Below are positions 3,573 to 22,540 of a stretch of DNA of 22,551 bases, piece by piece. Positions within the stretch are counted from its first letter, which is position 1; each line of letters opens with the position of its first letter. A program made the position numbers and the translations under genes. The notes below the pieces were generated by a model, which saw only the letters and a list, made by a program, of their open reading frames with translations, ran no database searches and was not told the origin of the DNA. Source of the stretch: a virus; IMG/VR virus record IMGVR_UViG_3300035698_001790, positions 1 through 22,551 of that record, one strand, 5' to 3'.

Positions 3573-3579
3573 TATTTAG
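3573..3579 (-). promoter_or_regulatory. Late-promoter-like CTAAATA
   Basis: CTAAATA on the minus strand lies seven bases before the ATG of the tail-collar gene, in the short gap after the 587-residue gene. It is one of eleven such elements in the window and resembles the T4 late promoter TATAAATA. Confidence 0.6.
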
Positions 3580-3599
3580 TAGGTTTATTTGTTTTTCAA

Positions 3600-5363
3600 T
3601 CATTTCGGAATAAGTTTTGTTTGAATGTTCGAAATTGTTGTTAAGATTCTCTGGATGGTGATGACATTGATTGTTTCGTTTCCATTTACAAGAAGAGTCG
3701 CCATGTCAGTCTCCACTTCTTGGAGGGTATCGACAAACACCGAATATTCAGAGAATGTATACTTGCCCTCTGCATTAGTTAGGAGGTTGAGGGTGTCTTT
3801 CAAGAGGTTGGAGAGGATGGAATTTAGATATAGTCCAATGGAGGAGTCCGATTGATTCAGTCCAGTGAAGTATTTTGCCAGATTCGTCGGAACTATTGAA
3901 GAGATATAGTCTGTGATTGGTTGCTTCAAGGCATATAGGCGGCCATAATTATGTAATATCATATACATATTGCCAAATCTCGTAGTTTCAGAAATTGTTA
4001 GAACATTAAAGTTATTGGATGCGTATTCTCCTGAATTAAATTTAATTTTAATTAAATTAAACTTCTCTCTGGCATTTGAAAATTTATACTTATTGAAGTA
4101 TAGAAGCTCGCCCTGTTCCATTCTACCCATTGGATATTCTGGATTTGATATACTTCGGGTTTGGACTTCTGTTTGAGTATAGAGGTATATTTGATCTGAG
4201 TCAACATTACTAAACTTAATCTTATACCAATCGGATACATTTATACTTTGTAGCGTATTATGAACGAATGATGTCGGGTCTTGGCCAAATATCATCAATA
4301 ATTTTACTTCTCCTTCAGAACTATGTAGGAGTGCGACATCATCGGTGAAGGGGGACACGTCAACATCTAATATTTCCCCAACGTCGTAGGTTGATAGGTA
4401 TATTTGTTGATATACAGTATTGGAATATTTGTTCACCAACGATAAAACATTATCAGATACGGCAGTTCTGATATTTTTGCCGAACTTTATGAGTTCCGGG
4501 TTGTTGTCGTTTAGAGTGTGGTATTTGGAGTTGAACTTATAATGGGCCTCTCCGAACTTATAGTGCATTTGGCTTATAATATGTTCAAATGTGGTGGTGG
4601 GAGTGAGAGATATTTGATCTAGAAGTGGCAAGTTCTCACATTCGTCATAGTTCGATGAGTCGTAAATCCGAATAAAATCATTATTGACAATAAAGATTCG
4701 AGAATTGTCAATGTCATTGTGTATATTGTATGTATAATCAGGAGACAGTCCGTATTTTGGGTGGAGATCTTTCGTATATATGATCTTCAATTCATTCGGT
4801 TGGGCGAATGCGCCAGTTAAGACGTAATCATAGTCCCCAGTAGAGCAGATATACTTAAACTCTTCATCAGAATTGACGAAAAGTGCTCCAGTTTTGATAG
4901 TGTCTAAAAACTCCCACCCAGAATATGAAGAAAATGGTTCGATATGGCTATAGTGCTGCTTACTAACCATATTATCCGAAGTGGAATACACCCCATAATA
5001 CAAATTATCATTCTTTTCAAAATTATAAATAGTTGGATTTGGGATATTGAACCCCTTAAAACACTGAAGGTTGTTATTATTAACCGAATTTGTCAAAGTT
5101 TCCAATCCTTGGATGTTGAAGATGTCAAAGGTGTTTGAATAATATGGTGTTATTTGGGGGGTATTTTCATATGAAGTGTCAAACTCCATTTCATTGGAAA
5201 AAAGATCTCCCATGAATGTATCTTTGTAGGCTAATTCTTCTGAGTCTGGGTTGAAAAATCGTTCGGTGTATGGTACGTTGTCAACTATATGAAAAAAGCC
5301 AACATAATTTTCTCCATTTAGGGTTAATGCCCCCCCATCGGTATACTTAAAATAGCTTTTCAT
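3600..5363 (-). CDS. Unrecognised large virion protein (587 aa)
   Basis: I do not recognise a family with confidence. The first 55 residues (YFKYTDGGALTLNGENYVGFF, then a PYTERFF and KDTFMGDLF segment) form a compact motif region that may be an assembly or attachment domain. The body is rich in Tyr, Asn, Ser and Asp and beta-like, with propeller-like stretches around 280-420. The last 110 residues are more helical (ILSNLLKDTLNLLTNAEGKY, then a C-terminal helix of Ile/Thr/Leu). No signal peptide or membrane segment is visible. Its ATG overlaps the stop of the 747-residue gene by one base (TAATG), implying translational coupling. Size, composition and position between baseplate-like and fibre genes support a structural role in baseplate or tail. 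Confidence 0.6.
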   Translation of the reverse strand: MKSYFKYTDGGALTLNGENYVGFFHIVDNVPYTERFFNPDSEELAYKDTFMGDLFSNEMEFDTSYENTPQITPYYSNTFDIFNIQGLETLTNSVNNNNLQCFKGFNIPNPTIYNFEKNDNLYYGVYSTSDNMVSKQHYSHIEPFSSYSGWEFLDTIKTGALFVNSDEEFKYICSTGDYDYVLTGAFAQPNELKIIYTKDLHPKYGLSPDYTYNIHNDIDNSRIFIVNNDFIRIYDSSNYDECENLPLLDQISLTPTTTFEHIISQMHYKFGEAHYKFNSKYHTLNDNNPELIKFGKNIRTAVSDNVLSLVNKYSNTVYQQIYLSTYDVGEILDVDVSPFTDDVALLHSSEGEVKLLMIFGQDPTSFVHNTLQSINVSDWYKIKFSNVDSDQIYLYTQTEVQTRSISNPEYPMGRMEQGELLYFNKYKFSNAREKFNLIKIKFNSGEYASNNFNVLTISETTRFGNMYMILHNYGRLYALKQPITDYISSIVPTNLAKYFTGLNQSDSSIGLYLNSILSNLLKDTLNLLTNAEGKYTFSEYSVFVDTLQEVETDMATLLVNGNETINVITIQRILTTISNIQTKLIPK

Positions 5364-7606
5364 TATTTGTTATTTTCAAATTTGATCTCAGATAGCTCAG
5401 AGTTGACTGGCACGTCTATAAGATTATTTGTGAGTGTTTCGATAAGGCCCGCTTGGATATCGGCATTGGTTATATCGGTATTTTTGATGATGATATTCAC
5501 CTTATTAGATTTGAAGAGAGAAGAACCGGATGCGCTCTGGAGATGTTCGATATTATCAGAGCTATTCCTCATACCACATGGCAATGCGATGTATATGTCA
5601 TTAATTGCCATCTTTCCATCGATCATAGGCTTAATGAATGCTAAATTCTGGTCTGTGGAGTCTGCTATGATGTATGGTGTAGTTATATAGGTCGTTTCCT
5701 CAAGTAGATTAGTTACAACGTCTCCTTGGTATATGAAGAAATCTCCATATAGTAGCTGTTTGTAAATATACTGATATCTTGGGATTTCGAAAGATTTGAT
5801 AATAGATGTATTCAAGAAGAAGAACGACTCTCCGGTGATCCCATCGACAGAACATAGAACGAAATTGTTCTTCAAACTCTTAATATTTCCACTTTCGGTC
5901 CAAGTTGTGGTTGTTCCATTGCTAGAATCGAAGATTTTTAGAGTTATAATGAGCGTTTGGCCAGTTTTACTGATCGATATTCCGCTGTCGAGTGCATTTC
6001 TTTCGCTTTGAACTGTCCAATTTTTGGCATCGCCATCAAAATAGAACCCAATGGTGTATTTATTGGCCTTATTTATAGTTTTGAAGTAATTGACTGGTTG
6101 CGTCGCATTGAAACCTGTGCAGAATGTAAAGGCAGATGATAGAGACGGGAAAATGGTGGTTGATATCCGTTCATAGAGATACGTTTCGTTTGCAGAAAAG
6201 GTCAGATCGCTCTTTTTGTCGAAAAACTTTCGAAGTGTGACCGATTCCTCTAATTCGCTATTTGAATTGATCAAAGATTCGATATAATCGTCATATGTTG
6301 GGGAGATTGGGCCATATGCGGTAATTGCGGCCTCTTTTTCAATTAAATCGGGATAATAGTATCTATCAATCCAGATGTTGTCTGATGAAGATGGGGAGCC
6401 TGATAGCCAAGTGCAAAGGATGTATTGGGCCTCTAAATTTTCGTCTTTCGAGATGTGGTATACCTTATCTGCGTATTGGGGTGTTGGATATGCGAATGAT
6501 CCAGAATATTTGAATGTCGTATCGTTAATATTGAGTGTAGAATATGGGAAAATTGATGAGGGCGCGAGGACTAAGGTGCTACCGGGGGTGATCCTATAGT
6601 GTTTATTGTAAAACACATAATTGAGTTCTAGTTCGTCGGTGTTCTCTTCTGTGATATCTTCGAATATTGAGGTATATTCTCGCAAATCCGCCGAGTGTTC
6701 TGAAATTGGGCCACTGGTGAGCAATGTGTTCGCACAGGAGAACACATCTCCTTGTAATAATTGATTTTTGAGGATGATCGGGGATAATATACTTCCATTC
6801 AGAGGCTTGTGTAATAGTATATTGTTTTTTAGGTCGAAAATACTATTGTCTTTGTCTATCTGATTGCTGTTGGTATATGCAATGAACGAAGTATTATTCG
6901 TTGCATTGACGGTTGTGAATATACTTCGAGAAAGAACAAAAGGGGTGGATAGGTATGTTATAATATTTGGTTGGAGGACCAAGCTATTACCATATTTTAT
7001 GAGGATGTAGTTTGTAGTTTCAGTCCGCTTGAAGAACAACATAGAATTTGTCGCCTCGGAAAACATATAGTCAAAATCGTGAGGATTGATGTCTGATGTT
7101 GTGGGGATCAGTTTTTCGAGCACAAACGATATGTTATTGTCGGTATTTGATATTAGGTAATATTTACGATATTTTTTGGTGAAGTATATCCTACATTTAT
7201 TGTTTTTGTGAATCTCTAAATTGAAATGGGTGTCGTCGTTGGTTACAGTTGAGAATGTGGCCGACCCATAATTATTATATTCCGAATATCTGTCCACATC
7301 TTTGTACGCCTCTGCGTCGGCAGGCGAGAATTGGAGAAAATCTAGTCCATATTTTATCTCGGTTCTAATATTAGACGATGGGAGGATGGATTTACCATAT
7401 GTGAATCCAGAATTGAATAGAATATTGTCGGATAGATAAAAGTTGGAGTAATTTTTCGTCTTGACATCTACTAAATCAGTAAAACACGCAGGAAAATTAA
7501 CACTAAGACCTCCAGAATATGATCTCTTAAATTGCTTTACGTCAACATTGTCCATGGTAGTAGACAATGTTGGCGATTCTATAGATGATAGTGAAATAAT
7601 TACCAC
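5363..7606 (-). CDS. Unrecognised large virion protein (747 aa), probable GTG start
   Basis: There is no clear family match. The N-terminal 60 residues (KRSYSGGLSVNF, then VDVKTKNYSNFYLSDNILFN) resemble an attachment region, and most of the rest is beta-rich. About residues 480-600 contain KYTIGFYFDGDAKNW and a following SFFFLN strand, which could be a LamG/concanavalin-like sandwich (weak evidence). The chosen start is GTG at 7604-7606, because TTAAATA with an ATTTT spacer sits directly before it, exactly as before the 298-residue fibre gene. Otherwise the first ATG would be 17 codons inside. It starts nine bases after the PKD-like gene and is followed with a one-base overlap by the 587-residue gene. 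A virion structural role is inferred. Confidence 0.6.
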   Translation of the reverse strand: MVIISLSSIESPTLSTTMDNVDVKQFKRSYSGGLSVNFPACFTDLVDVKTKNYSNFYLSDNILFNSGFTYGKSILPSSNIRTEIKYGLDFLQFSPADAEAYKDVDRYSEYNNYGSATFSTVTNDDTHFNLEIHKNNKCRIYFTKKYRKYYLISNTDNNISFVLEKLIPTTSDINPHDFDYMFSEATNSMLFFKRTETTNYILIKYGNSLVLQPNIITYLSTPFVLSRSIFTTVNATNNTSFIAYTNSNQIDKDNSIFDLKNNILLHKPLNGSILSPIILKNQLLQGDVFSCANTLLTSGPISEHSADLREYTSIFEDITEENTDELELNYVFYNKHYRITPGSTLVLAPSSIFPYSTLNINDTTFKYSGSFAYPTPQYADKVYHISKDENLEAQYILCTWLSGSPSSSDNIWIDRYYYPDLIEKEAAITAYGPISPTYDDYIESLINSNSELEESVTLRKFFDKKSDLTFSANETYLYERISTTIFPSLSSAFTFCTGFNATQPVNYFKTINKANKYTIGFYFDGDAKNWTVQSERNALDSGISISKTGQTLIITLKIFDSSNGTTTTWTESGNIKSLKNNFVLCSVDGITGESFFFLNTSIIKSFEIPRYQYIYKQLLYGDFFIYQGDVVTNLLEETTYITTPYIIADSTDQNLAFIKPMIDGKMAINDIYIALPCGMRNSSDNIEHLQSASGSSLFKSNKVNIIIKNTDITNADIQAGLIETLTNNLIDVPVNSELSEIKFENNK

Positions 7607-7611
7607 AAAAT

Positions 7612-7618
7612 TATTTAA
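7612..7618 (-). promoter_or_regulatory. Late-promoter-like TTAAATA
   Basis: TTAAATA on the minus strand lies five bases before the GTG of the 747-residue gene. It overlaps the TAA stop of the preceding 163-residue gene (7615-7617). The string TTAAATAATTTT followed by the start codon is identical to that before the 298-residue fibre gene, which supports the GTG start. Confidence 0.6.
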
Positions 7619-8106
7619 CGCCGCGCTGTCACCATTTCAACTAAACCTTTGTCGGTTCGTAATTGGTATTCCAATTTATTGCCAACTATATTCACATTTT
7701 CAATAGAGATGCGCCCCATGGACTCTATCTTATCATAGGTTTTTAATTCAATCGGGACTCTAAAATGCGAAGATTCTCCATTTGAATAGTATGCCACCAA
7801 TTGGAGCGTCATATTTTTATATACTGCTGTAGGGGATGGAGTATATTCGTGGGTGTGTAAATCAATAAAAATGGGATTGTAGGTGTAGAACAACAATGCA
7901 TTGTCATAGTGGGACCCATAGATATTATTGTCTTTGGTTTCAGATGTTCCATCTCCCCAATTTATCTTTACATAGATGGGAATAACATCATTGTATAGAT
8001 TTTCCAGATTTAGTGTTACGATTGTATTATCGTTCAACTCTTGCTGACCCAACAGTTCAATGTGATTAGTTGAGGATGATGATAATGCGATGGTGAGAGT
8101 GTTCAT
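7615..8106 (-). CDS. Small PKD-like domain virion protein (163 aa)
   Basis: Residues 45-56 (YVKINWGDGTSE) carry the WGDGT turn of PKD-type domains. After an insertion the usual H.Y strand follows (HEYTPSP) and then a TLQLVAYYSNGE strand. The single domain spans about residues 25-120. The last 40 residues (ESMGRISIENVNIVGNKLEY) form another beta segment. Its start overlaps the stop of the 884-residue gene (ATGA). A GAGGA Shine-Dalgarno-like sequence lies nine bases upstream, one of the few clear ones in the window. It is probably a small decoration or adaptor of the neighbouring large structural protein; the exact role is unknown. Confidence 0.65.
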   Translation of the reverse strand: MNTLTIALSSSSTNHIELLGQQELNDNTIVTLNLENLYNDVIPIYVKINWGDGTSETKDNNIYGSHYDNALLFYTYNPIFIDLHTHEYTPSPTAVYKNMTLQLVAYYSNGESSHFRVPIELKTYDKIESMGRISIENVNIVGNKLEYQLRTDKGLVEMVTARR

Positions 8107-10757
8107 AATATTAGTTCCTCATCATCTGTGGTGTATCCCGATGACGATAAGAAGAATGTTGCAGTTGAGGTTCCAAAAATTAAGGATTCTGCGTATGGAC
8201 TGATTTCAACTACAGATTTAGTGTCAAATATAACATCTGGGTTCATATAGAACGGGTAATTATGAATCGTGATGGTATCATTTTGGTCTCTAAGGGGAAG
8301 AGAGATCATGAATGTATTGGTCTGACTATCGTAATTTAGGAGGGGTGAATCGGCAGAGGTGAATCTGACATCACCACCCGACACATTGAAGTATGTGGTG
8401 TCTATAGCTGCAATTGGAAATAGTAAATCTGTTTTGTGTGTGTTGGTGTTGTATTTGTAAACTTTGGGGTACGCAACAAAATTATTAGATGATATTGGCT
8501 CGGTGGTTACAAATTTACAGAAAAACACATCGAATGATTTTTTAACTCTATTCGATATCTTGTCAAAGTTTCCTGTTGAATGCTCTAGTTGATAGACTGG
8601 GGTATAAGGGTCCACGAATGTTCCGGATTCAAACTTCATCTGATTTGCCAGAAGCCAAGTCTCGGTTTCGATTAGTAAGATATCTGACAATACTTCAAAG
8701 TTGTATACTTTCTCGTTGATCTGAGATATAATTGCAGCTGAATATTTATCTACTAAATATGGGGACGCATCGAGAAGCGAGAGAACTTGCTTGGTGTAGG
8801 TGTTCCTAACCATCAATTTACCGTCAACCGTAGGTGCAATAGTATTGTCTATTGTGGTATTGTGGATGACAGTAGAATCATAGTAATATTGATCTGATGT
8901 TAGTGATTGACTTGGAAATGGGATTTCAAATCTACCCCCATCAATAACTTCGAATGCTGTTAGATTGTCCCCGTATGTCAGAAATTTTGCGGTTAATGAT
9001 GGGTATAGGGGATCAAGCAACGCTCTCTCCGGGACTACCGAGTGGACCCCATCTTCATATAGGTCGGAGTAGTAGAAAGAACCAGAGGACGCTTCAAATG
9101 CTGATAAATCAGATGATACCACATCATTATAAAACGAATCACCATTCATGATGTAGGCATTTTCAAAGATTTGATATGTTGTGGCCAGTCCCACTTCAGC
9201 GTGCTCCAATATGGGATAATTGTTGGAGAAACTACCGTAATTTAAGATAATGTCCGGTATTGTTGCTGAGAAATCGCCCGCACTAAGAGTCAGACCACTT
9301 CTTCTAAGTTCTGTATATGTTGAATAGTCTTCTGTCGCATAATCGAAAACACTCCCCTCATTATATATATCATCGAAGAATTGGTAACCATTGAAGATAA
9401 AGCTGGTTATAGTTGGAGTTGTTGTCGAATGAGGGATCTGTTGGAAGTTTCCATCTTTTATGAAAAGACCATAAAGATTACCATATAAGTCCTTCTTCGA
9501 ATCTTTTACATAACCCTGTTCAAATATACTATCTAAATATTTTTGATGTTGGGGTTCGATCTTAGACACGTATCCATAGTATTTTGTGTCGTATTGACCG
9601 GTGGTTGGTTGGTTGGTGGCCAACCCCGACGAAAAATTCTTTTTGAGGTACGAATCATCTACCACAAGGGTCAAGACATCACCATTCGTTCCAATTATGC
9701 TTGGATCTGGAAAGAAATACAACGAATTTGGTTCCAAATTATCATAATTTATCTGGTATGTGTTGGTTACACCATCAACCAGAACGATTGTAGTATTTGA
9801 GGGTCTAAAAAAGCCACGTTCTCTTGGCGTTTCTAGATATTCTAAGTTTTCGGTAGATGCCGTGGTGGGATAATCACGATTCAGGAAATTAAGAGAGGTA
9901 TTAACATTATCGAAGAGTTTTCCGGATAAAACATCGGTGATGGTATCACCCGTTTGGATATAATAGAATGGGAATGCCGTATATTCCTCTGTTAGTGCTC
10001 TTTTAGTGTCAAATAGTTGGTCTGCTTCCTTGATGTCTTGTAGAGTTTGAGACACCCCTGCAAAAACTTCAGAAATTAGATCTTTATTTGTTCTTAAGAA
10101 GATATTGAGACCATAATCAAGGTCTTTCTTACCATAAACGCTGTCATCTGGGATTTGGTTGAAATAGTTTGGATATGTATTATATAACTCCTCTACTTCA
10201 ATCTCAAGTTTGGCCTTTATTGCATCGTAATCATACAATATCTTCCCGTCGTCATAATTTTTCAAGTATGTTAACACCAATCCCGATATGTTTTTTTCGG
10301 CTCCAAAGTTAGATCCCTTTAATTTAGAACGAGAAACATTAAACTTTAGGTCGTCTCTCTTTTGATTATAGAATGCGGCCAGATCATTCAGTTTCCTAGA
10401 ATAGAACCCCAGAATGATATCTAAATCATATTCGTCGTTGAAATCAATTTTGGTGAGGAATTCCTTTTCCTCTGGCGTTGTATAGTTTAGAGTTACTTCT
10501 TTTACAAAGTCTCTATACTGATCTACTATCAATATATTGTTGTCAACTGTCTTGGATGTATTTTTAGTATTCCAGAGTCCAAGATAGTGATTGTAGTACT
10601 TTTGCAAGGTGCTACTCTCGAAGGATACATTTATCAACTTGATAAATGTCAAAAATGACATAGGCCCATCGACATCGACAGAATTCACCCGTTTTACGTC
10701 CGGATTCGTTATGGATCTTGGAACTGAGGGGTATCCTAATTGTAATGTATTGGCCAT
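8103..10757 (-). CDS. Unrecognised large virion/baseplate-associated protein (884 aa)
   Basis: This is the largest protein in the window and I cannot name it. Residues 1-290 are strongly helical and charged (KKDLDYGLNIFLRTNKDLIS, then a LQDIKEADQLFDTKRALTEEY segment) and may form an attachment or coiled region. Residues about 290-884 become beta-rich with many Tyr, Ser and Asp (FRPSNTTIVLVDG, NSLYFFPDPS) and repeated short strands. No signal peptide or membrane segment is seen. It starts after a TTAAATA element and is coupled through an ATGA overlap to the small PKD-like gene. The helical head plus beta-rich body and the structural neighbours suggest a large baseplate or tail component. A search against phage virion proteomes would settle this. 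Confidence 0.6.
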   Translation of the reverse strand: MANTLQLGYPSVPRSITNPDVKRVNSVDVDGPMSFLTFIKLINVSFESSTLQKYYNHYLGLWNTKNTSKTVDNNILIVDQYRDFVKEVTLNYTTPEEKEFLTKIDFNDEYDLDIILGFYSRKLNDLAAFYNQKRDDLKFNVSRSKLKGSNFGAEKNISGLVLTYLKNYDDGKILYDYDAIKAKLEIEVEELYNTYPNYFNQIPDDSVYGKKDLDYGLNIFLRTNKDLISEVFAGVSQTLQDIKEADQLFDTKRALTEEYTAFPFYYIQTGDTITDVLSGKLFDNVNTSLNFLNRDYPTTASTENLEYLETPRERGFFRPSNTTIVLVDGVTNTYQINYDNLEPNSLYFFPDPSIIGTNGDVLTLVVDDSYLKKNFSSGLATNQPTTGQYDTKYYGYVSKIEPQHQKYLDSIFEQGYVKDSKKDLYGNLYGLFIKDGNFQQIPHSTTTPTITSFIFNGYQFFDDIYNEGSVFDYATEDYSTYTELRRSGLTLSAGDFSATIPDIILNYGSFSNNYPILEHAEVGLATTYQIFENAYIMNGDSFYNDVVSSDLSAFEASSGSFYYSDLYEDGVHSVVPERALLDPLYPSLTAKFLTYGDNLTAFEVIDGGRFEIPFPSQSLTSDQYYYDSTVIHNTTIDNTIAPTVDGKLMVRNTYTKQVLSLLDASPYLVDKYSAAIISQINEKVYNFEVLSDILLIETETWLLANQMKFESGTFVDPYTPVYQLEHSTGNFDKISNRVKKSFDVFFCKFVTTEPISSNNFVAYPKVYKYNTNTHKTDLLFPIAAIDTTYFNVSGGDVRFTSADSPLLNYDSQTNTFMISLPLRDQNDTITIHNYPFYMNPDVIFDTKSVVEISPYAESLIFGTSTATFFLSSSGYTTDDEELIL

Positions 10758-10763: not shown

Positions 10764-10770
10764 TATTTAA
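10764..10770 (-). promoter_or_regulatory. Late-promoter-like TTAAATA
   Basis: TTAAATA on the minus strand lies six bases before the ATG of the 884-residue gene, in the 33-base gap after the SNFLG-repeat fibre gene. No Shine-Dalgarno sequence is evident. Confidence 0.6.
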
Positions 10771-10790: not shown

Positions 10791-11687
10791 TTAGGCGTAA
10801 CATGGAATCTTTAAATCGATCCCATTTACCCGAACGACTAGATACGTTGTAATAGCTCCCGGTGCTGTACCGCCAGCGGCAGTTAGGAACGGATATGTTG
10901 TAGATCCTAGAGCAATTGTATTGTTTTGTGTTGCTACTGCTTCAGTTCCAATTACTAAGCAATCTGAAGTTGATAACGGCAATACTGAAGTATCTTTGCC
11001 GAACAGTTGATTTCTAGTTCCGGTAACGCACACCCCCGCGTGATATCCCAAAAAGTTCGAATTATCTGCGCCTGTTGCGCCATATCCCGCGTTATTGCCA
11101 AAGAAATTGGAATCATTTGCATTAAGGGCGTTATATCCAGCTTGAAATCCTATAAAGTTTGAATCGTTTGCTCCCGTTGTGTTCACCCCAGTTCTGGATC
11201 CTATAAAGTTTGATTGGTGTGCGGTTGTGGCACCATCTCCAGCTTTATGGCCGAAGAAGTTTGATCGATATGCCCCATGGGCTTGAAATCCCGCATTACT
11301 ACCCAAGAAATTTGACTTGTTGGCATTGGCGGCGATTGCCCCCGCATTAGATCCTAAGAAATTAGAGTCGTTTGCATTGGTGGCGCCTGACCCCGCCATA
11401 GATCCTAAGAAATTAGAGTCGTTTGCGAGGGGTGCCCGATGACCAGTTCCATTTCCCAAGAAATTTGAATTGTCGGGTATCTTTCGAACTGCTTCCACCA
11501 TGGCAAAATTGGCACCATCAGAAAACATTATCAAAGAACTTCCGGATAAGGAAATATTGGAATTCACGTATGTTTTTATCTCGCTAAGTTTGCTTGTTAC
11601 TGTTAACCCATTTTGGTTCATTAAAACACTCTCCCCCCCGGAAAGCGGGGTATCGGCCAGTGTAAGTTGGGAGACTTTAATACTCAT
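10791..11687 (-). CDS. Repeat fibre/adhesin with 17-residue SNFLG motifs
   Basis: A 298-residue protein. The N-terminus (residues 1-70; IKVSQLTLADTPLSGGE, then SSLIMFSDGANF) resembles fibre adaptor regions. Residues 74-226 are nine consecutive repeats of about 17 residues with the pattern SNF[LFI]GxxAGxxATxAxx, plus a tenth degenerate copy (NQLFG). A TIALGSTT segment near 255-262 resembles the head repeats of YadA-type trimeric adhesins, where NSxALG units build a left-handed beta-roll. A similar roll or beta-helix trimer is inferred here. The C-terminal 40 residues (YLVVRVNGIDLKIPCYA) form a capping strand region. The start follows TTAAATA. It is likely a host-contact fibre; the fold is inference. 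Confidence 0.7.
   Translation of the reverse strand: MSIKVSQLTLADTPLSGGESVLMNQNGLTVTSKLSEIKTYVNSNISLSGSSLIMFSDGANFAMVEAVRKIPDNSNFLGNGTGHRAPLANDSNFLGSMAGSGATNANDSNFLGSNAGAIAANANKSNFLGSNAGFQAHGAYRSNFFGHKAGDGATTAHQSNFIGSRTGVNTTGANDSNFIGFQAGYNALNANDSNFFGNNAGYGATGADNSNFLGYHAGVCVTGTRNQLFGKDTSVLPLSTSDCLVIGTEAVATQNNTIALGSTTYPFLTAAGGTAPGAITTYLVVRVNGIDLKIPCYA
11010..11468 (-). repeat. Nine tandem 51-bp coding repeats
   Basis: These are in-frame 51-bp units encoding the SNFLG motif of the fibre protein. Most copies have diverged at DNA level, but two neighbours share a perfect 26-bp direct repeat (11350-11375 and 11401-11426, exactly 51 bases apart), which suggests unit turnover by slippage or recombination. 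Confidence 0.9.
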
Positions 11688-11691: not shown

Positions 11692-11844
11692 TTATTTAAT
11701 TAAAAGAACGTTTTTTTCTGTTTTAATTATTTGAGATTTTTCATTTGCAATGAATGTTGGCGTGGTGTTTTTCTTTTCAGATTTCCACAATTTTGTAATC
11801 CACTCGAAAATGTCAACAAAAAAGTTTTTTATTCTTTGAATCAT
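11692..11844 (-). CDS. Small unknown protein (50 aa) with amphipathic helix
   Basis: The start at 11844 was chosen because GTAAATA lies five bases upstream, as at other transcription-unit heads here. A 14-codon longer version from 11886 is possible but would overlap the divergent gene's start. The protein begins MIQRIKNFFVDIFEWITKLW, an amphipathic aromatic helix of about 20 residues that could lie on a membrane, followed by a basic polar tail ending LLIK. It is too short for a clear transmembrane or holin call and I cannot assign a function. It heads the minus-strand structural run: its stop overlaps the TTAAATA element of the following fibre gene. Confidence 0.5.
   Translation of the reverse strand: MIQRIKNFFVDIFEWITKLWKSEKKNTTPTFIANEKSQIIKTEKNVLLIK
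11693..11699 (-). promoter_or_regulatory. Late-promoter-like TTAAATA
   Basis: TTAAATA on the minus strand lies five bases before the ATG of the repeat-fibre gene and overlaps the AAA-TAA end of the 50-residue gene. The spacer ATTTT is identical to that at 7607-7611. Confidence 0.6.
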
Positions 11845-11849: not shown

Positions 11850-11856
11850 TATTTAC
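11850..11856 (-). promoter_or_regulatory. Late-promoter-like GTAAATA (divergent pair, left)
   Basis: GTAAATA on the minus strand lies five bases (TCAAT) before the ATG of the 50-residue gene. It stands only nine bases from the oppositely oriented GTAAATA at 11866-11872. The same spacer TCAAT follows the element before the 196-residue gene at 16050. Confidence 0.6.
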
Positions 11857-11865: not shown

Positions 11866-11872
11866 GTAAATA
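11866..11872 (+). promoter_or_regulatory. Late-promoter-like GTAAATA (divergent pair, right)
   Basis: GTAAATA lies six bases before the ATG at 11879 and would drive the small acidic gene, the sugar-nucleotide genes and the clamp loader rightward. Confidence 0.6.
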
Positions 11873-11878: not shown

Positions 11879-12088
11879 ATGAACACAAAATGGTTAAAGA
11901 AGGTGTGGGAGAAAGAAGAAAAACTTTTAGATGCTATTTATGAGGTCCAAGAGTTTCTCGATTCCACTGAAGATGAAGAATTATCGTCAATGGGTGCAGA
12001 ATTTTCCGAATCGCTGGTTGACTTTCTCTATGAAAATGATTATATATCTTTGAATGATATTAAAACACACATTGAAAGTGAACTCTAA
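11879..12088 (+). CDS. Small acidic unknown protein (69 aa)
   Basis: A helical protein. It has a basic aromatic start (MNTKWLKKVWEKEEKLLDAI), then a strongly acidic region (DSTEDEELSS) and an ending of mixed helix (ESLVDFLYENDYISLNDIKT). No family is recognised. The pattern of alternating hydrophobic and acidic residues and the small size would fit a phage accessory protein that binds a host factor, but nothing in the sequence shows which. It begins the rightward operon right after a GTAAATA element, and its 3' end overlaps the epimerase/reductase gene by up to 35 bases, so the two are probably translated together. Confidence 0.6.
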   Translation: MNTKWLKKVWEKEEKLLDAIYEVQEFLDSTEDEELSSMGAEFSESLVDFLYENDYISLNDIKTHIESEL

Positions 12089-12938: not shown

Positions 12939-13131
12939 TAATATGAGAGAGAATAATAAGGAATACAATGACGAGGGATTTGCGAAATTAATCACAATTG
13001 CCGAAAAAGCGAATCAAGATGTGCGGGACTATGTTGAGAAGATGGTGGACACACACATATTTGATATTAGAAATGAGAAAATCGTCTCAGTTATACCAGA
13101 CCATAATGACTGGACCCCCGTAAGAGAATAA
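12928..13131 (+). CDS. Small unknown protein (67 aa) between sugar genes
   Basis: A charged helical protein (FAKLITIAEKANQDVRDYVE) ending in a short segment VSVIPDHNDWTPVRE. No family is recognised. The start could be 12928, overlapping the end of the epimerase gene by 11 bases, or ATG 12943. The second start has an upstream context (GATAATAATATG) like that of the following gene (GAGAATAATATG). It ends one base before the RmlA-like gene, so it is clearly part of the same operon. A role linked to the sugar pathway is possible only from position. Confidence 0.55.
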   Translation: MKDNNMRENNKEYNDEGFAKLITIAEKANQDVRDYVEKMVDTHIFDIRNEKIVSVIPDHNDWTPVRE

Positions 13132-13132
13132 T

Positions 13133-14802: not shown

Positions 14803-15455
14803 ATCAGTCCGGGTTTGGTGGCTTGTGCTTGCCGATTTTGTGCTTGCGGATTCGGGGAACGTTGTTGGGGTGTTCGGGCTTGTTGCGCCTGTTGTTTGCC
14901 TTGTTTGCCTTGTTTGAACGCCGCGCCCATTCCGCTGGTAACATCGGGGGCCGCTTCTTTTTCAGCCTTGGTCTTAGCATAAGAACTATTCAAGTATTCA
15001 ATGATTTGATTTAGAGTTAATTTTAAGGGGTCCGCGCCTTGTAAATCAAGTAATCCATACTGAATATACTGGGTTAAGAGATCATGAAGTTGTTGGGTTG
15101 ATTTATAAACTTGTTTGACCGCATCCGTTGTCTTTTTTTGGCTGGTGCCCGTTGCCGCCATGCGCCCAACGTTTGAGATGGCCTGTTTGCCCGCATTGGC
15201 AACACCTGCGCCAAGTGCGCCCGTAGCGTTCTTTACCGCTTCTCCTGCACCCTTTGCAGCGTTTTTTAGCCCACCCCAAAATTCTTCGATGATTCTCTCA
15301 TTCACAGTATTGATATAGTCTAATTCTGAGTCTGACATCGTTGGGAAACGAGCTTGAAGTTGCTCCAATGTCATGTTGGGCGCGTGCTCTTTTAAAAGTT
15401 GGATGATGTACGCTTCTTCAAGAAGATTGTTATCTTTTGCGGTGTAGATACTCAT
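14799..15455 (-). CDS. Unknown protein with Gly/Ala amphipathic helix and Gln-rich tail (218 aa)
   Basis: The start at 15455 (MSIYTAKDNNLLEEAY) follows CTAAATA by five bases. A longer reading frame to 15668 exists but overlaps the upstream real gene and is rejected. Residues about 58-103 (EEFWGGLKNAAKGAGEAVKN, then GALGAGVANAGKQ) form a long Gly/Ala-rich amphipathic helix of the kind that inserts into membranes or packs inside capsids. Residues about 175-215 are Gln, Ala and Pro rich and probably disordered. LLE at 11-13 fits the T4 prohead-protease consensus. I do not recognise the family. Candidates are an internal head protein or a membrane-active protein. It is transcribed after the 196-residue gene. 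Confidence 0.7.
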   Translation of the reverse strand: MSIYTAKDNNLLEEAYIIQLLKEHAPNMTLEQLQARFPTMSDSELDYINTVNERIIEEFWGGLKNAAKGAGEAVKNATGALGAGVANAGKQAISNVGRMAATGTSQKKTTDAVKQVYKSTQQLHDLLTQYIQYGLLDLQGADPLKLTLNQIIEYLNSSYAKTKAEKEAAPDVTSGMGAAFKQGKQGKQQAQQARTPQQRSPNPQAQNRQAQATKPGLI

Positions 15456-15459: not shown

Positions 15460-16050
15460 TTATTTAGTTTGGGTTTCTTCTTCTGGGGTCCAAAGATCTT
15501 CATATAACATAGCCATATTATCATTGTCGAACTTTTTGCGGGTGCTTTCTCCCGCCATCTTATACTCTGCGGGAGTGTTTTTGCCCCCCACACCACTATT
15601 TTTATTAGTTTGGCGAGTAATGTGCTTGTCATCAGGCTTAAACACTTTTGGTTTATAGTCCACTTCATGTTTTAGTTCAAACTGATCAGGGACATCGGGA
15701 GAGAACGTGTCTTTGTCGGCAATATCGATCATATCGGTCGAAACCGTAAACGAATTCGTTATTCTACCCCCTCCTGTGTCTCCTCCGACAGTAACGACAA
15801 CGTTATCAGAAGTCTTGTGTTGATTGCCCCCAGAAACACCAGATAGCTTATCTCCAACTTGAATTACTTTAATGTTTAGTCCGCCACTCACCAATTCATC
15901 GAGTTCGTCCCTCATGACTGAAGGCATGGCTTTATAAGTTAGAGAGTTCTTATAATCCGGACGGAATTGAATCCAATCACCCGTAAGATAGCCTCCTACT
16001 TGATTTCTTCCAACGACTGATTCGAAAATTTTATCAAACTTCTTACCCAT
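15460..16050 (-). CDS. Unknown phage protein starting KKFDKIFESVV (196 aa)
   Basis: The N-terminus MGKKFDKIFESVV resembles the start of the divergent 635-residue protein (MKFDKLFKIVTEA). It is followed by GGYLTGDWIQFRPDYK and a SVMRDELDELVSGGLNIKVI segment, then VVTVGGDTGGGRITNSFTV. The layout suggests a small beta-barrel-like domain (residues 20-125) with a polar tail. I have an impression that similar proteins occur in other marine T4-like phages, but I cannot confirm it. IFE at 8-10 fits the (L/I)-X-E cleavage consensus of T4 gp21. It heads a two-gene leftward unit and its TAA overlaps the CTAAATA of the next gene. Function unknown. Confidence 0.7.
   Translation of the reverse strand: MGKKFDKIFESVVGRNQVGGYLTGDWIQFRPDYKNSLTYKAMPSVMRDELDELVSGGLNIKVIQVGDKLSGVSGGNQHKTSDNVVVTVGGDTGGGRITNSFTVSTDMIDIADKDTFSPDVPDQFELKHEVDYKPKVFKPDDKHITRQTNKNSGVGGKNTPAEYKMAGESTRKKFDNDNMAMLYEDLWTPEEETQTK
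15461..15467 (-). promoter_or_regulatory. Late-promoter-like CTAAATA
   Basis: CTAAATA on the minus strand lies five bases before the ATG at 15455 and overlaps the AAA-TAA end of the 196-residue gene. Confidence 0.6.
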
Positions 16051-16055: not shown

Positions 16056-16062
16056 TATTTAG
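16056..16062 (-). promoter_or_regulatory. Late-promoter-like CTAAATA (divergent pair, left)
   Basis: CTAAATA on the minus strand lies five bases (TCAAT) before the ATG of the 196-residue gene. It faces away from the ATAAATA at 16075-16081, 12 bases apart. Confidence 0.6.
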
Positions 16063-16074: not shown

Positions 16075-16081
16075 ATAAATA
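16075..16081 (+). promoter_or_regulatory. Late-promoter-like ATAAATA (divergent pair, right)
   Basis: ATAAATA lies five bases before the ATG of the 635-residue gene. A perfect T4 octamer TATAAATA also occurs at 16080-16087 but runs into the start codon, so the first element with the standard spacing is preferred. Confidence 0.6.
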
Positions 16082-16086: not shown

Positions 16087-17994
16087 ATGAAGTTCGATAA
16101 ACTGTTCAAGATTGTAACGGAAGCAAAAGGCACGGAACCGGGACGTAGATTACACGCTGCCAAAAATGCTGCGGGTCCTGCGGGAGTGGTGTCTGGTCCA
16201 ATTGGGAAGTCTGATAATTTCGAATTGCAAACTCCAATTAAGCGTTGGGATTTTGACCCGACGGCGGATAGAAAAACCACTGCGGGCATTAAAGCTGCGA
16301 ATAAGGCATATTCTGGTATGTTTACGACTTTGGATAATGGGTTTTCCCTACTGAAGAACGATGACACCTTCATTCCCGCAATTGATGGCATTTCCAAAAA
16401 GTTCGATAGGAAGAGAGAAGGATACAAAAACATTATAATGGGAACCGACCCAGAGTCAGGGAAAGACACCATCACGAAATACGATGAGGAGTCCAAGCTC
16501 GAAAGTTTGGAGAGATCTGTTTCCAAGTATCGGGGAGAAACCGAAAATACGAGAATGGTAGTTCGCCAACTACAAAGAGAAGTAGATGCCATCGACATGC
16601 CAAAAATGGCAAGACGAAATTTAGAATCTGAAATCGGAACCTTAAAGGCCGAGGTAGACGCAACCGAAAAGTATTTTAAAGATGAGAAAGTGTCTAATCT
16701 ATATGGGGAATACCGGAAATTAGATGCCGAGGCCAAAAAGCACTTAGAACGATTAGCGAATTTTAAAAGAGATCTGCCGATCTCGAAAACTCCCGAAAAG
16801 GTGAAATTAAACATGAATCGGGCTAGACTCGACCTGAAAGAAGTCCAACAAGAGATGGGAGAAAAACGGTTCAATAAAATTCGAGGATTGTTCAAGACCG
16901 TATTGTCCAATCAGGATAAACTGACTCGGAGAATGGCGACCCTCTCCCACGCAGAGGCGGGTCCTAGCACCAGAGCAGAAAAGACAGCCAAGTTGGAAGA
17001 ACAGCAGGCGAAATTCGATAAACTAACAGACAAGCTACATACCAATGAGAGCGACCTGAGTGATCTCACAGATAGGGTCAACCAAATCGGAGAACAAAAC
17101 GTTGCAAACAATGAAGTGGCAATGAGACAGTTCATTGACCAAGTGTTAATGAGTGCCAATAAGATTAAAGATGACATCGACGAAGAAATCGCGGCGTATT
17201 CTAGTGCAAACGAAGCTGTAACCCCAGAAGACCCAAATTGGATCGATACTCCAACAACACTAAAACAAAAGCAGTCGATGATCGGAGCTTTGGCAGAAAA
17301 CAGCACAAATAATCCACTGATTGCGTATTTAGATACTATCGTCCGTAGAAATTATGAACTCCCGCCCAATTCTGCATCTGCATACAACCCCGAAACAAAG
17401 TCATTTGATGTTTCATCATTGACGGGCACAAAAGATCTACAATCAAGAGAATTTGACAAAAACACGAACATAACATCGATGAGAGATTACAATAGTCTCC
17501 CATTTGTGAGAATGATGAATGTATTTTCAACCTCTAAAACTCCAAAAATGTCGCTTAAGGGATCTGATGCGGATGTGAGTGTTGACCTTGGAAACTTGGA
17601 AAAAATCAATAAGATATTCATGGGAATCTTCTCAGCATTCTCATATACATCTGGACCGATGGAAGACGCCATCTCTAAGGACGCATGGGAAAAGCCCCAA
17701 AACAAAAACAAGATGAAAAAATTGGTATTTGACATGGGACTTGGGCCTGCAAGCACTGGCACACTCGTTCAAATGATAAATAGACCGTGGAGTGTCACAA
17801 AATCTAAATTGAACTCATTTCGCCAGTTACAGGCAACCCTCGATAGCGAAACTAAAAGATTCTATAATAAAAATGATCCGGCGGCAAATACAGCAGTCGC
17901 AGAATCATTCGACACATACGTTGCCAGACTTTTGAAAACCACTAAATATGATGAGGACAGGCTCAAAGTTGGTCTAATGGAAATATTTGGATAA
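16087..17994 (+). CDS. Large coiled-coil protein (635 aa), possible internal/scaffold or tail protein
   Basis: I do not recognise a family. The N-terminus MKFDKLFKIVTEA resembles capsid-targeting sequences of T4 internal proteins (for example MKTYQEFIAEA). Residues about 25-50 are Gly/Ala/Pro rich. Residues about 135-380 are charged heptad-like coiled coil (LESLERSVSKYRGETENTR, RRNLESEIGTLKAEVDATEK, KLTDKLHTNESDLSDLTDRV). Residues about 400-635 appear globular (DYNSLPFVRMMNVFSTSK, KLVFDMGLGPASTGTLVQM). Its TAA shares a base with the ATG of gp25 (TAATG), which ties it to the baseplate operon. A scaffold, internal head protein or tail-assembly chaperone are all possible. Confidence 0.75.
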   Translation: MKFDKLFKIVTEAKGTEPGRRLHAAKNAAGPAGVVSGPIGKSDNFELQTPIKRWDFDPTADRKTTAGIKAANKAYSGMFTTLDNGFSLLKNDDTFIPAIDGISKKFDRKREGYKNIIMGTDPESGKDTITKYDEESKLESLERSVSKYRGETENTRMVVRQLQREVDAIDMPKMARRNLESEIGTLKAEVDATEKYFKDEKVSNLYGEYRKLDAEAKKHLERLANFKRDLPISKTPEKVKLNMNRARLDLKEVQQEMGEKRFNKIRGLFKTVLSNQDKLTRRMATLSHAEAGPSTRAEKTAKLEEQQAKFDKLTDKLHTNESDLSDLTDRVNQIGEQNVANNEVAMRQFIDQVLMSANKIKDDIDEEIAAYSSANEAVTPEDPNWIDTPTTLKQKQSMIGALAENSTNNPLIAYLDTIVRRNYELPPNSASAYNPETKSFDVSSLTGTKDLQSREFDKNTNITSMRDYNSLPFVRMMNVFSTSKTPKMSLKGSDADVSVDLGNLEKINKIFMGIFSAFSYTSGPMEDAISKDAWEKPQNKNKMKKLVFDMGLGPASTGTLVQMINRPWSVTKSKLNSFRQLQATLDSETKRFYNKNDPAANTAVAESFDTYVARLLKTTKYDEDRLKVGLMEIFG

Positions 17995-18480: not shown

Positions 18481-18487
18481 TTAAATA
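18481..18487 (+). promoter_or_regulatory. Late-promoter-like TTAAATA
   Basis: TTAAATA lies seven bases before the ATG of the gp6-like gene, in the 15-base gap after gp25. Confidence 0.6.
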
Positions 18488-18494: not shown

Positions 18495-20303
18495 ATGAGC
18501 AACCAAAGTCTTGAATATAACCTACCAAATGACGCTTATGTGAACTTTGACGCCACGGCATTGAAGTCATTCATGATTGAGCAACTGAATAATGGGGGTA
18601 GGTTTACTGATCAAAATTATGAGGGTAGTAACCTATCGTCATTGATTGATATCTTAGCATATTACACTCATGTGCTGATGTTTTACTTAAATCAAACATC
18701 ATCAGAGTCCATGTTCTCTCAAGCCACAATCTACGAGAATATGAACAAGATTGTCAAATTGATTGACTATAAGCCAACCGGACTTCAGACATCCTTATCC
18801 CCAATCAATTGTGTAGCATCTGACTCTTTAACACTAGGAAGTTACAACATCAGAAAGTATAGTTATTTTTTGGTAGATAATGTCCAGTATACGTTCATTG
18901 CGGATCAAACATTTGAGAAAACTATAGAGACAACAGAATCCATCGATGCTATAAACGATACGGCAATTATGTATCAGGGCGTCGTCTCGGAATATCCAAC
19001 ATATACTGCGGAGGGTATTGAATTTGAGACTCTTCCAATTGTAATAGACAACTTAGTAGACACAAAGGACACTCGGTTTATATCCCATGGAACTATCAGC
19101 GTATATGTTAAAGAGGTGGACACCGATACTTGGTATGAGTATTCGGCGGTTGACAATCTCTTTCTATCTACTTCTGTTGATCGAGTATTTGACGCAAGGC
19201 TTAATGAGTATGGGCACTATGAGATCAAATTTGGCAGTGGCTTATTTGGAAAGCAAGTGGATGCTGGGGATGAAGTTGCGGTGTTTTATATTTTGAGTGA
19301 TGGAGATAAGGGCATTATTAGTAAGAATGCTATCAATGGCAACAAGTTATTCGTATATAATAGTCGTAAGTTTAATGAGATTTACGATGATGTTAATTCC
19401 CTCTTATCAACACAGATCGATAGCACATATTCACAATATCTCACATTCAATAACCCATCAAACTCCACCATTATTCAAAATGCTGAAGATGTTGATGGAA
19501 TTCGGGGAAATGTTCCAACCTTCTTATCATCTCAATTGAGACTTGTAACAGAACATGATTATGAGGTTTACTTGAAGAAGAGTATCCCTAATGTTCTCAA
19601 TGATGTGAAGGTTGTCAACAACCAGACATTCATCTCTGGATATATCGACTATTTCTATAAGATTTGCGTCGATCCAAACAAAGTGAATAGGGTCATATTG
19701 AATCAGGTGAACTTTGCAGACTCCTGCGACTTCAATAATATCAATGTCTTTGTGGTTCCGACCTTTCTCTTACAGGAAGAACAATATCCTGAGTTTGTGT
19801 CAAATAGCTTCAAAACCATGATCAAAACTATCACAAACGATAAGAAGATGATCAGTAATGAGGTTGTTGTGAGAGATCCTATTTATACTGCTCTGGATGT
19901 CGGATTTACCAACCTTACAGTTGAAAAGAGTGTCTATAGTGACACAAAATTAACAATAGTCCGGGAGAAAAATAATAAAGTTAGTAAGGAGACCCTCAAA
20001 AAGCAAGTATCGGACATTATCGTTGACTATTTCGACCCTTCGAATATAACCCTTGGGCAGAAAATTGATACCAGTCAGATATCCTCCGATATCTTGAGTT
20101 TGGTGGGTGTTCAGAACGTGAAAACATTTAACTCAAAGGAAAATATCTATTTCACGGGAGTTTCATTCGTGGCCTGGAACCCCATGTTTGAAGGCGTTGA
20201 TGAAGAATTGATAAATCAGACTACGACCTTACCATATTTCAAATTTCCATACTTTTATAGACCTACGACTCTGATAAACAGAATAGAAGTCCTTGACGAA
20301 TAA
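18495..20303 (+). CDS. gp6: Baseplate wedge protein, T4 gp6-like
   Basis: A 602-residue protein (T4 gp6 has 660). The N-terminal region 37-95 (FTDQNYEGSNLSSLIDILA, then YLNQTSSESMFSQATI and KIVKLIDYKP) is characteristic of gp6/J-type wedge proteins, where it joins gp25. A middle domain (about 190-270) holds YGHYEIKFGSGLFGK, the strand-loop found in this family. The 330-400 region (VDGIRGNVPTFLSSQLRLVT then DYEVYLKK) is also typical. gp6 dimers link the wedges into the iris ring around the central hub. It sits after gp25 as in many T4-like phages, and its stop shares a base with the next ATG. Confidence 0.93.
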   Translation: MSNQSLEYNLPNDAYVNFDATALKSFMIEQLNNGGRFTDQNYEGSNLSSLIDILAYYTHVLMFYLNQTSSESMFSQATIYENMNKIVKLIDYKPTGLQTSLSPINCVASDSLTLGSYNIRKYSYFLVDNVQYTFIADQTFEKTIETTESIDAINDTAIMYQGVVSEYPTYTAEGIEFETLPIVIDNLVDTKDTRFISHGTISVYVKEVDTDTWYEYSAVDNLFLSTSVDRVFDARLNEYGHYEIKFGSGLFGKQVDAGDEVAVFYILSDGDKGIISKNAINGNKLFVYNSRKFNEIYDDVNSLLSTQIDSTYSQYLTFNNPSNSTIIQNAEDVDGIRGNVPTFLSSQLRLVTEHDYEVYLKKSIPNVLNDVKVVNNQTFISGYIDYFYKICVDPNKVNRVILNQVNFADSCDFNNINVFVVPTFLLQEEQYPEFVSNSFKTMIKTITNDKKMISNEVVVRDPIYTALDVGFTNLTVEKSVYSDTKLTIVREKNNKVSKETLKKQVSDIIVDYFDPSNITLGQKIDTSQISSDILSLVGVQNVKTFNSKENIYFTGVSFVAWNPMFEGVDEELINQTTTLPYFKFPYFYRPTTLINRIEVLDE

Positions 20304-22540
20304 TGAGCACAACCTATATCAATTTTTCCGCTATTGATTTTACAGGACTGGATTCTCTGTCCTCGTATGCAATTTCCCTGACACCTCTGAGATTTATTCC
20401 AGATTTGGACATAACCGACAAAACTTATAGGTATTTGTGGAACTTTGGAGATGGAACAATTTCTAAATCCTTTTCGGCCTCGAAATATTATGAGTTTCCG
20501 GGAATTTACCCTATCGAACTCGTAATATATAATTGTGATAATAATGCAGAGATATCAAGCGTCACAAAAAATATAACCGTATATGACTACATCCCATATA
20601 CATTGTCACTGGGTGGTTTGTCGTCTTGGGAGTTTCCGATTGGACAAATAACAGGTCCGATTGAAGTTACCGCATCTTATCCCCTATATCAACCGACAAC
20701 GTCGATATATTGCTCTGTCTCGGGTTCTGGTAGTAATAACTATTGGAATATCAACGATAAGAAGTATTCACACTTAGACAATTTTTATGCTTACTATGAT
20801 ACCCAATATAACTATTCGTTATCTGCGGCCCAATATACACCAGTAGAAAAGATCACAATAATCCCAACTCCAATATACGCAAAACAATCCGGTGACAATA
20901 TTGTAGAGTGTTTATCAACCGTAGACGGATCGCAATTGGTCGGTTATAGAGGTCTCAAAGATGTCTATTATAAGGATGATGTGGTATCGGATTTAGTATT
21001 TCTCAAATTCTTCTTTGATAAAACTGGGACTATCGTTCCCTCTGTAAAGTTAAGTAGCCCATATCTGAATAATCTAGGTTTGACTCTCTCCGCAACGGTC
21101 GTTGATAACTCCCCAGTTGAGCTTTCAATAACTTCAAATGGTGTCGATGGAGAAGGAGTTGAAATTGATGCTTTTAACATAAATCGGATTAAGTTCTTCA
21201 ATACTAGAATTCCGTTTGTCATTAAATTGAAAGATCCGAATTGGTTCTCCATTAAGAATCTCGACACGATTTCATTAACTGACATAACATTCTCATTGTC
21301 TGGTATTGATCACGATTCGATATTATCATCGGAACAAACACAATATTTATTGAATGAAGATGGAGACGTTGTGTATGTGTTTGGTGGAACATACTTCCTA
21401 GATTCGTGTTTTGAATTTTTTACGACCGAGACAGGAGAAATCTTTACGACCGAGACAGGAGAAATCTTTACGACTGGGGCGGGAAATAATATATATACTT
21501 CTGAGTTGTCGGCGTGTAAATACCAGATTGGATCATTGAATCCCACATTGTCTTCCGTTGATGCTGGAGGCGTATTCCGGGGATATATCGAATTCCCATT
21601 GTTATCTGGATCTGCCTTATATCAAAATATTCAACTCATGGCAAGTGTGACACTTACAAGTGATACACTCATTACATATTCTTTGGAGGGCCAAACTAGC
21701 CTATTCGACGTATATTCATCCAAGTATTTTGACATGTATAAGAAGTTTGAAGACTTCGACGCGGGCCAGACGATTAAAGATCTCCGATTTCAAGAAACCT
21801 TATTAGATAAGGAGGTTTTATTTGACGATTTCATTGGACAGATATTGGGAACCGAAACTTCAACTTACGACACAATCGGGAAGAAATTATACGAAAAAAT
21901 ATCAAATTTTGTGCAAAACACACAGGACGTTGATAAATGTAATGTCGATGGTCTCCATTCTCTCGCGGAATATTTGGGATATGACGACAGTGGCGAAGAA
22001 CAGTATATATATCCAACATCAATAAAACGGTGGATGGATCTATTTTCTATTACAGGGTCAAAGCTCATTGGAGTTACAAATAAATTCAATCAGAATCTAG
22101 ACATTAAGGGAAGGTCCACTAAAGTTGAATATGGTAAGAATATCGGAGACTTAATAGATCCCGACACATATGTCGTGGGTATTGATGTCCCAATCGTGGC
22201 ATTAGAGAAATTTAGCAACACATACACACTTTTAAATACCCACCAACCACTATCAGCCACCGGGACTTCTACTTACCCATTATCAGACTACGATGCAACT
22301 TGGGGTTGGCCTCTAGTATTACCATCTGATTTTGAATTTGTGGATATTTCGAAATATTATCTGTTCTTTGCATATGATGATCAGATTGATGAAACCATCA
22401 CGGACGGAGTTATTGATTTTGTGAATACGCAAACGACTGTCACCCCATATGCGACGCAAGAAGATCTGAGTAGCAGAAATGGAATATTTGAAAATATTAT
22501 ACTCGATACCCTCTATCAATCGCTGAGTCTCATTAAATAA
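20303..22540 (+). CDS. Large PKD-domain baseplate/tail protein in the gp7 position (745 aa)
   Basis: A PKD-like domain lies at residues 40-97 (YRYLWNFGDGTISK, then EFPGIYPIELVIYN). Beta-rich segments fill 100-360. A short 8-residue repeat (FTTETGEI twice, then FTTGAGN) lies around 373-394. The C-terminal 250 residues change character, from VLFDDFIGQILGTE through KLYEKISNFVQNTQDVDKCN to YDATWGWPLVLPSDFEF, and look like a conserved globular domain of its own. I do not recognise the whole protein. TAATG coupling to gp6 and a position equivalent to T4 gene 7 make a wedge-associated role likely, but similarity to gp7 is not visible. Confidence 0.7.
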   Translation: MSTTYINFSAIDFTGLDSLSSYAISLTPLRFIPDLDITDKTYRYLWNFGDGTISKSFSASKYYEFPGIYPIELVIYNCDNNAEISSVTKNITVYDYIPYTLSLGGLSSWEFPIGQITGPIEVTASYPLYQPTTSIYCSVSGSGSNNYWNINDKKYSHLDNFYAYYDTQYNYSLSAAQYTPVEKITIIPTPIYAKQSGDNIVECLSTVDGSQLVGYRGLKDVYYKDDVVSDLVFLKFFFDKTGTIVPSVKLSSPYLNNLGLTLSATVVDNSPVELSITSNGVDGEGVEIDAFNINRIKFFNTRIPFVIKLKDPNWFSIKNLDTISLTDITFSLSGIDHDSILSSEQTQYLLNEDGDVVYVFGGTYFLDSCFEFFTTETGEIFTTETGEIFTTGAGNNIYTSELSACKYQIGSLNPTLSSVDAGGVFRGYIEFPLLSGSALYQNIQLMASVTLTSDTLITYSLEGQTSLFDVYSSKYFDMYKKFEDFDAGQTIKDLRFQETLLDKEVLFDDFIGQILGTETSTYDTIGKKLYEKISNFVQNTQDVDKCNVDGLHSLAEYLGYDDSGEEQYIYPTSIKRWMDLFSITGSKLIGVTNKFNQNLDIKGRSTKVEYGKNIGDLIDPDTYVVGIDVPIVALEKFSNTYTLLNTHQPLSATGTSTYPLSDYDATWGWPLVLPSDFEFVDISKYYLFFAYDDQIDETITDGVIDFVNTQTTVTPYATQEDLSSRNGIFENIILDTLYQSLSLIK
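21419..21484 (+). repeat. 24-bp tandem repeat, two copies plus partial third
   Basis: Positions 21419-21442 and 21443-21466 are identical 24-base units, and 21467-21484 begins a third copy that has diverged. The repeat is in frame (8 codons, FTTETGEI) inside the PKD-domain protein and looks like a recent slippage expansion. Confidence 0.9.
22533..22539 (+). promoter_or_regulatory. Late-promoter-like TTAAATA
   Basis: TTAAATA overlaps the AAA-TAA end of the PKD-domain gene and lies five bases before an ATG at 22545, the same arrangement as before the starts at 11687, 15455 and 7606. Confidence 0.55.

Follow-up and report, generated by a model that had tools for sequence, protein, structure and literature searches.

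Late genes in an uncultured branch of T4-related phages very probably begin almost directly at their own promoters. The window analysed here, the whole 22,551-nucleotide stretch of IMG/VR virus record IMGVR_UViG_3300035698_001790, is a 22.5-kb record from such a phage, encoding homologues of gp6, gp25 and gp44, a PKD-domain protein and large proteins of no assigned function. Many of its genes are preceded by the hexamer TAAATA at 5-7 nt from the start codon. We posit with high confidence that this hexamer is the -10-type core of a late promoter for a sigma factor of the gp55 family, that it is mostly fused to the gene start, and that the late mRNAs are leaderless and free of Shine-Dalgarno (SD) sites.

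A TAAATA element at a fixed distance from gene starts

An earlier note on this DNA had listed eleven NTAAATA sites located 5-7 bases before start codons, all of which are present on the correct strand (Table 1). The spacer is 5 in seven of them, 6 in two and 7 in two. The window holds no general excess of TAAATA (34 copies versus 30.6 expected). At 5-7 nt, however, it precedes 11 of the 22 starts, while 14 other permutations of its letters reach only 0-3, and shuffled upstream regions contained a mean of 0.22 sites and a maximum of 4 in 20,000 trials. TAAATA-N5-ATG was found 6 times versus 0.62 expected, a count that 0/100 shuffles reached. The claim that the arrangement is far beyond chance was thus borne out.

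The gp6 protein of the window matches phrog_219 (E 2e-34). Isolated phages are only distantly related (gp6 identity <30%, with cyanophages at the top), and cyanophages are the nearest isolated relatives by gp6 as well as gp23. Many relatives were found in IMG/VR, of which 80 with gp6 identities of 39-74% were kept, some on contigs of up to 207 kb. Window genes were compared with orthologues at 22-74% protein identity, and genome-scale motif counts were made on six related contigs of 117-207 kb. For seven motif-bearing window genes the motif was kept in every tested orthologue, down to 22% protein identity. It is variable before gp25 (17/25 orthologues) and was found in 1/12 orthologues of gene 5363. 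Motif-free genes stay motif-free in their orthologues (8106, 0/16; 12054, 0/9; 13133, 0/9; 13864, 0/17; 20303, 0/24). The earlier observation that genes within coupled pairs are poor in the motif therefore holds, and it extends to the orthologues of such genes.

Across the six contigs, 252 of 1526 TAAATA copies are followed by ATG at a spacer of 5, where ~28 would be expected (log10 P ~ -151). The spacers N6 and N7 account for 79 and 36 copies, respectively, versus ~28 per offset. No comparable peak was obtained in these contigs with the reverse complement or with 14 letter permutations. With GTG in place of ATG a small peak appears at this spacing, and with TTG there is none. Upstream of the core in the spacer-5 genes, A or G predominates at -13, where T is depleted; -12 is occupied by A, C or T, and -14 favours G. 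The suggestion that the first T of the T4 box TATAAATA is relaxed was right about relaxation, but two positions (-13 and -12) are concerned instead of one. In 90% of these genes a T or C occupies -1, as is usual just before a transcription start site.

Table 1. Promoter elements and leader structures in the window and its relatives (spacers in nt; strand in brackets)
Element	Location	Spacer and start codon	Gene or context	Orthologues with element	Remarks
TAAATA core	3573..3578 (-)	7, ATG 3565	tail-fibre/collar-like gene 2930-3565	9/9	
TAAATA core	7612..7617 (-)	5, GTG 7606	gene 5363-7606	13/13	overlaps stop codon of upstream gene
TAAATA core	10764..10769 (-)	6, ATG 10757	gene 8103-10757	18/18	spacer always 6
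TAAATA core	11693..11698 (-)	5, ATG 11687	gene 10791-11687	12/12	several tandem repeats of type NDSNFLGxxAG in product, probably a repetitive fibre
TAAATA core	11850..11855 (-)	5, ATG 11844	short open reading frame 11692-11844	no orthologue found	head-to-head with 11867..11872
TAAATA core	11867..11872 (+)	6, ATG 11879	69-aa gene heading RmlD-RmlA-gp44 operon	11/13	
TAAATA core	15461..15466 (-)	5, ATG 15455	gene 14799-15455	9/9	
TAAATA core	16056..16061 (-)	5, ATG 16050	gene 15460-16050	18/18	
TAAATA core	16076..16081 (+)	5, ATG 16087	gene 16087-17994	13/13	
TAAATA core	18482..18487 (+)	7, ATG 18495	gp6 baseplate wedge	20/25	
TAAATA core	22534..22539 (+)	5, ATG 22545	gene running off window		overlaps stop codon of preceding gene
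Second-class element TTAATTAAAACCGAA	G001 (L104-L114)				
Second-class element ATTAAAAACTA	G011 (L152-L157)				
Second-class element AAACACTA	G002 (L122-L132)				
Second-class element TAAAAACTA	G003 (L142-L151)				
gp23 leader hairpin	L180-L185, L187, L188, L198, L200-L202, L208, L209, L214, L215, L218; G001/G002/G003/G005		upstream of gp23		

Association with late genes and gp55

Late and early marker genes were assigned in the relatives using T4 and S-SSM5 genes as markers. The element was present at 39/65 late markers versus 0/66 early ones (Fisher P 3e-16). Homologues of gp55 (phrog_234) were identified in 10/16 relatives, including all eight with contigs of at least 138,985 bp, and in two more distant relatives. 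The gp55 proteins of the clade are 146-154 amino acids long and align with T4 gp55. Three hallmarks of a T4-type late promoter are found here, namely the core box or an accepted variant, a position before late but not early genes (phoH excepted), and gp55 encoded by the relatives. This favours the note's proposal of a gp55-like late sigma factor with relaxed specificity, and judging from these sequences gp55 would be the protein that recognizes the TAAATA sites.

Several observations weigh against this reading. The element is missing from 26/65 late markers, many of them in coupled pairs, with gp4 and gp23 lacking it in other contexts. The gene phoH bears it in five contigs at a spacer of 7 (9 in one); it was set aside from the 66 early genes once its motif was seen, because its class is uncertain. 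Counting phoH as early gives at most 5/71, and the late/early split stays strong. A looser first pass had also flagged gp46 in one contig, which the stricter count drops. The window itself, as a 22.5-kb fragment, carries no gp55. The gp33 protein that the note led us to expect did not turn up (phrog_254, 0/12 relatives even at E <= 1), though this protein is short and fast-changing and its profile insensitive. The sliding clamp gp45 (phrog_223) is divergent and recognizable in only 6/12 relatives. Lastly, leaderless translation is inefficient in Escherichia coli.

TAAATA could alternatively be a ribosome-binding or Kozak-like element of a host that does not use SD sites, as for example in Bacteroidota, and not a promoter at all. 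It lies at SD distance where an SD is absent, and Flavobacterium favours A at -3 and -6 (PMC6847099). We nevertheless regard this explanation as very unlikely. The element marks late genes only, yet early genes need ribosomes too, and coupled-pair genes do without it in a conserved manner. TAAATA is moreover the known late-promoter core, and in the early class described below another box stands where that class's own predicted start site would require it. Finally, the box shifts to 12-14 or 24 nt in some relatives without vanishing.

This shift is best seen at gp18. Among 66 environmental phages, the gp18 box lies at 5-7 nt in 53, elsewhere in 12 and is absent in 1. Most of the 12 displaced boxes are at 12-14 nt, and one is at 24 nt and followed by AAGGAG. 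Since the box persists when its distance to ATG changes, it behaves like a promoter and not like a ribosome site. Spacing classes are clustered on the gp18 tree, yet they changed several times. Two sister loci, L311 (24 nt, with a 19-nt SD leader) and L314 (5 nt, no leader), share the same TAAATA box. The peak at 5-7 nt persists in the rest of the contig bearing L311, where 0/23 long open reading frames have an SD, so the leader is a property of this gp18 gene and not of the genome. The series of spacings (24 nt with SD, 12-14 nt and 5 nt) offers a natural system for studying the gain and loss of 5' leaders.

Probably leaderless late messages

The late box of T4, TATAAATA, spans -13 to -6 (PMC1524935). 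As this box ends at -6, a 5-nt spacer would place +1 on the A of ATG. On the T4 geometry, RNA polymerase would open the DNA at TAAATA and RNA would start on the A of ATG at spacer 5, and 1-2 nt earlier at spacers 6 and 7, so the late mRNAs of the clade should be leaderless or have a leader of 1-2 nt. Ribosomes would then presumably bind the 5'-terminal AUG. Downstream genes of coupled pairs, which have no element of their own, would be reached by read-through and presumably translated by re-initiation.

Three independent facts agree with leaderless starts. Firstly, SD sites are near or below background, being present at 2-9% of motif genes, 8-14% of other genes and 10% of random positions, versus 83% of T4 late genes. 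Secondly, 29 divergent gene pairs have the motif on both sides, and in 16 of these the start codons are 27-37 bp apart, too close for leaders to fit between them. The genes starting at 16050 (-) and 16087 (+) of the window form a divergent pair with start codons 36 bp apart, and a further tight pair is CATATTACATATTTAAGACTAAATAACTATATG in contig G002. Thirdly, a second, unrelated promoter class ends at the same base. The sites also conform to a published rule for bacteria (PMC3160421), in which a TA-like box ~10-12 bp ahead of the start identifies a leaderless gene: the first T is at -11 for spacer 5, clustering is tight and there is no SD.

An ordinary leadered T4-like late promoter would be expected if the annotated starts were too early or if RNA started elsewhere. 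Precedent speaks for it, as late mRNAs of T4, cyanophages, pelagiphages and Aeh1 have leaders; the distance from box to ATG is typically 18-29 nt there, and an SD lies in between. It is highly improbable in the present case, given that protein N-termini are conserved from the proposed methionine (gp18, MAxRTIxSPG), that the six contigs show no broad second TAAATA peak at 20-30 nt before ATG, and that the tight divergent pairs would not accommodate leaders. The idea that the motif merely results from AT-rich DNA between genes and from stop codons (TAA..) that overlap it ahead of ATG can practically be dismissed: the window is 61.5% AT and the motif overlaps the preceding stop codon at four of its sites, but same-letter controls fail, stop codons are lacking at the sites in divergent regions and so do not account for them, and the motif is conserved across 22-74% identity, so that the permutation and orthologue tests already contradict it.

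Comparison with known late promoters

The late promoters of T4 and of the clade have the core TAAATA in common, lack a -35 element, stand before late genes and go along with gp55, which relatives in the clade encode. They differ in that the T4 box lies mostly 24-28 nt from ATG and is followed by a leader with an SD, whereas the clade has 5-7 nt and no SD. Positions -13 and -12 are relaxed in the clade, and neither gp33 nor the SLDFLYE C-terminus of gp55 was found there. The late promoter of Aeromonas phage Aeh1, CTAAATA, likewise retains TAAATA while -13/-12 are relaxed (first A or G, then C; PMC1524935, PMC2988020), but unlike in the clade its box is mostly ~18-29 nt upstream of ATG with an AAGGAG-type SD. 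The cyanophages S-PM2, Syn9 and S-SSM5, from the group of nearest isolated relatives, have NATAAATA late promoters and gp55, but S-SSM5 lacks the 5-7 nt peak of the clade. Late genes of Aeh1, HTVC008M and Mosig that have a box mostly carry it upstream of an SD-like sequence. In the Pelagibacter phage Mosig (L175, L176) a small excess of TAAATA at spacer 5 was also noticed (10/173), though the late genes examined there are leadered.

Leaderless genes of Actinobacteria and Deinococcus have TANNNT ~12 bp before the start and +1 at the start codon (PMC3160421), as is predicted here. Those genes are served by the main sigma factor of the host, while the clade would employ a phage late sigma factor and, in the relatives, a second phage promoter class. 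Promoters of the gp55 type and leaderless genes are both known; their fusion across a phage clade appears to be new. The literature searched, which misses many subscription journals, yielded no paper describing leaderless late mRNAs of the T4 type.

Late transcription in T4 is a textbook system with leadered mRNAs and strong SD sites. If our reading is true, promoter and translation signal have merged into one element in a widespread uncultured branch, and late transcript starts are predictable to the single base from sequence alone. One would then have to ask how so much virion protein can be made by a lytic phage from leaderless mRNAs. On the practical side, TAAATA-N5-ATG is of use for assigning start codons in these metagenomic phages.

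A second, early-type promoter class

In the relatives, genes without TAAATA have another fixed element that lies ~22-28 nt ahead of ATG; a TATAAT-like box comes after it, 6 nt from the start codon. These elements are lineage-specific (AAAACCGAA, AAAAACTA, AAACACTA), and each genome has dozens of them, most of which precede small early-type genes. In G001 and G011 the TATAAT-N6-ATG peak reaches 35 versus ~5-10. In G005 and G010 it is weak or absent as a class, and it was not seen in the window, which consists of late genes. The -10 box of sigma70 spans -12 to -7. With TATAAT in this place and a 6-nt spacer, +1 would therefore again be the A of ATG, and the 1-nt difference in spacer between the two classes equals the 1-nt difference between the sigma70 (-12..-7) and T4 late (-13..-6) boxes.

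TTGA[CT] at the place of a -35 box was found only 0-3 times per genome. Because it is so rare, a phage activator may act at the second-class element, as happens at the MotA boxes of T4. In the relatives a repeated element ahead of TATAAT for the most part takes the place of the -35 box, a likeness to the MotA middle promoters of T4. Assignment to that type was rejected, as a T4 MotA promoter combines a MotA box centred at -30 with a -10 box, whereas the second-class element lies at ~ -28 to -14 and has a differing, lineage-variable sequence. A separate sigma70-like promoter, TTGACA-N16-TATACT, was noticed at 13824-13851 of the window, ~12 nt before the gp44 start, where a leader would be at most very short.

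Possibly retained leaders and the sliding clamp

Exceptions to the close spacing are mainly gp23 and some gp18 genes. No close element precedes gp23 in the four contigs where this gene was found. Upstream of it, a hairpin of the form TGARG...CYTGA with a 4-9 bp stem and compensatory changes is present at 17/37 loci. In the window and at 11 gp23 loci, all Rfam matches were below threshold. We posit that leaders may be kept for the proteins needed in the largest amount.

The C-terminal SLDFLYE of T4 gp55 is its clamp-binding motif. It has no counterpart in five gp55 proteins of the clade (L112, L119, L125, L137, L145) or in S-SSM5. Without this tail and a recognizable gp33, the late sigma factor of the clade may, if our reading is true, act without the clamp coupling of T4. 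More tentatively, and with somewhat less than even confidence, we suggest a wider scenario in which the whole clade has remodelled its promoters, so that early/middle as well as late transcripts begin at the A of the start codon and the transcriptome is nearly leaderless, in which abundant virion proteins (gp23, some gp18) are the main ones whose genes kept or regained leaders, and in which the late sigma factor possibly works without the sliding-clamp coupling characteristic of late transcription in T4.

Clues to the host

The lack of SD sites suggests a host that makes little use of them. Bacteroidota are disfavoured. Their promoter box is TAnnTTTG (PMC6847099, PMC9723704), in contrast to the TATAAT/TTGACA early boxes seen here, and only 5.5% of mRNAs are leaderless in Flavobacterium psychrophilum (PMC9723704). 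Photosynthesis genes, a possible sign of a cyanobacterial host, were not found in the six contigs or the window. Nucleotide-sugar genes similar to RmlD and RmlA lie at 12054-13867 of the window, between the 69-aa gene led by a late promoter and gp44. RmlA is ~50% identical to its best matches in three phyla alike and for this reason does not point to a host phylum.

A gp18 scan of genome contigs returned four distant matches, one of them in a Nonlabens assembly. This 188-kb contig of Nonlabens xiamenensis (NZ_RMVE01000006.1, L171) encodes a T4-type gp18 with an AGGAG SD. Also present in this assembly of a Flavobacteriia isolate is a cyanophage-like gp55 close to the phrog_234 profile. The contig was rejected as a member of the clade. 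It is probably a phage that was sequenced together with the culture.

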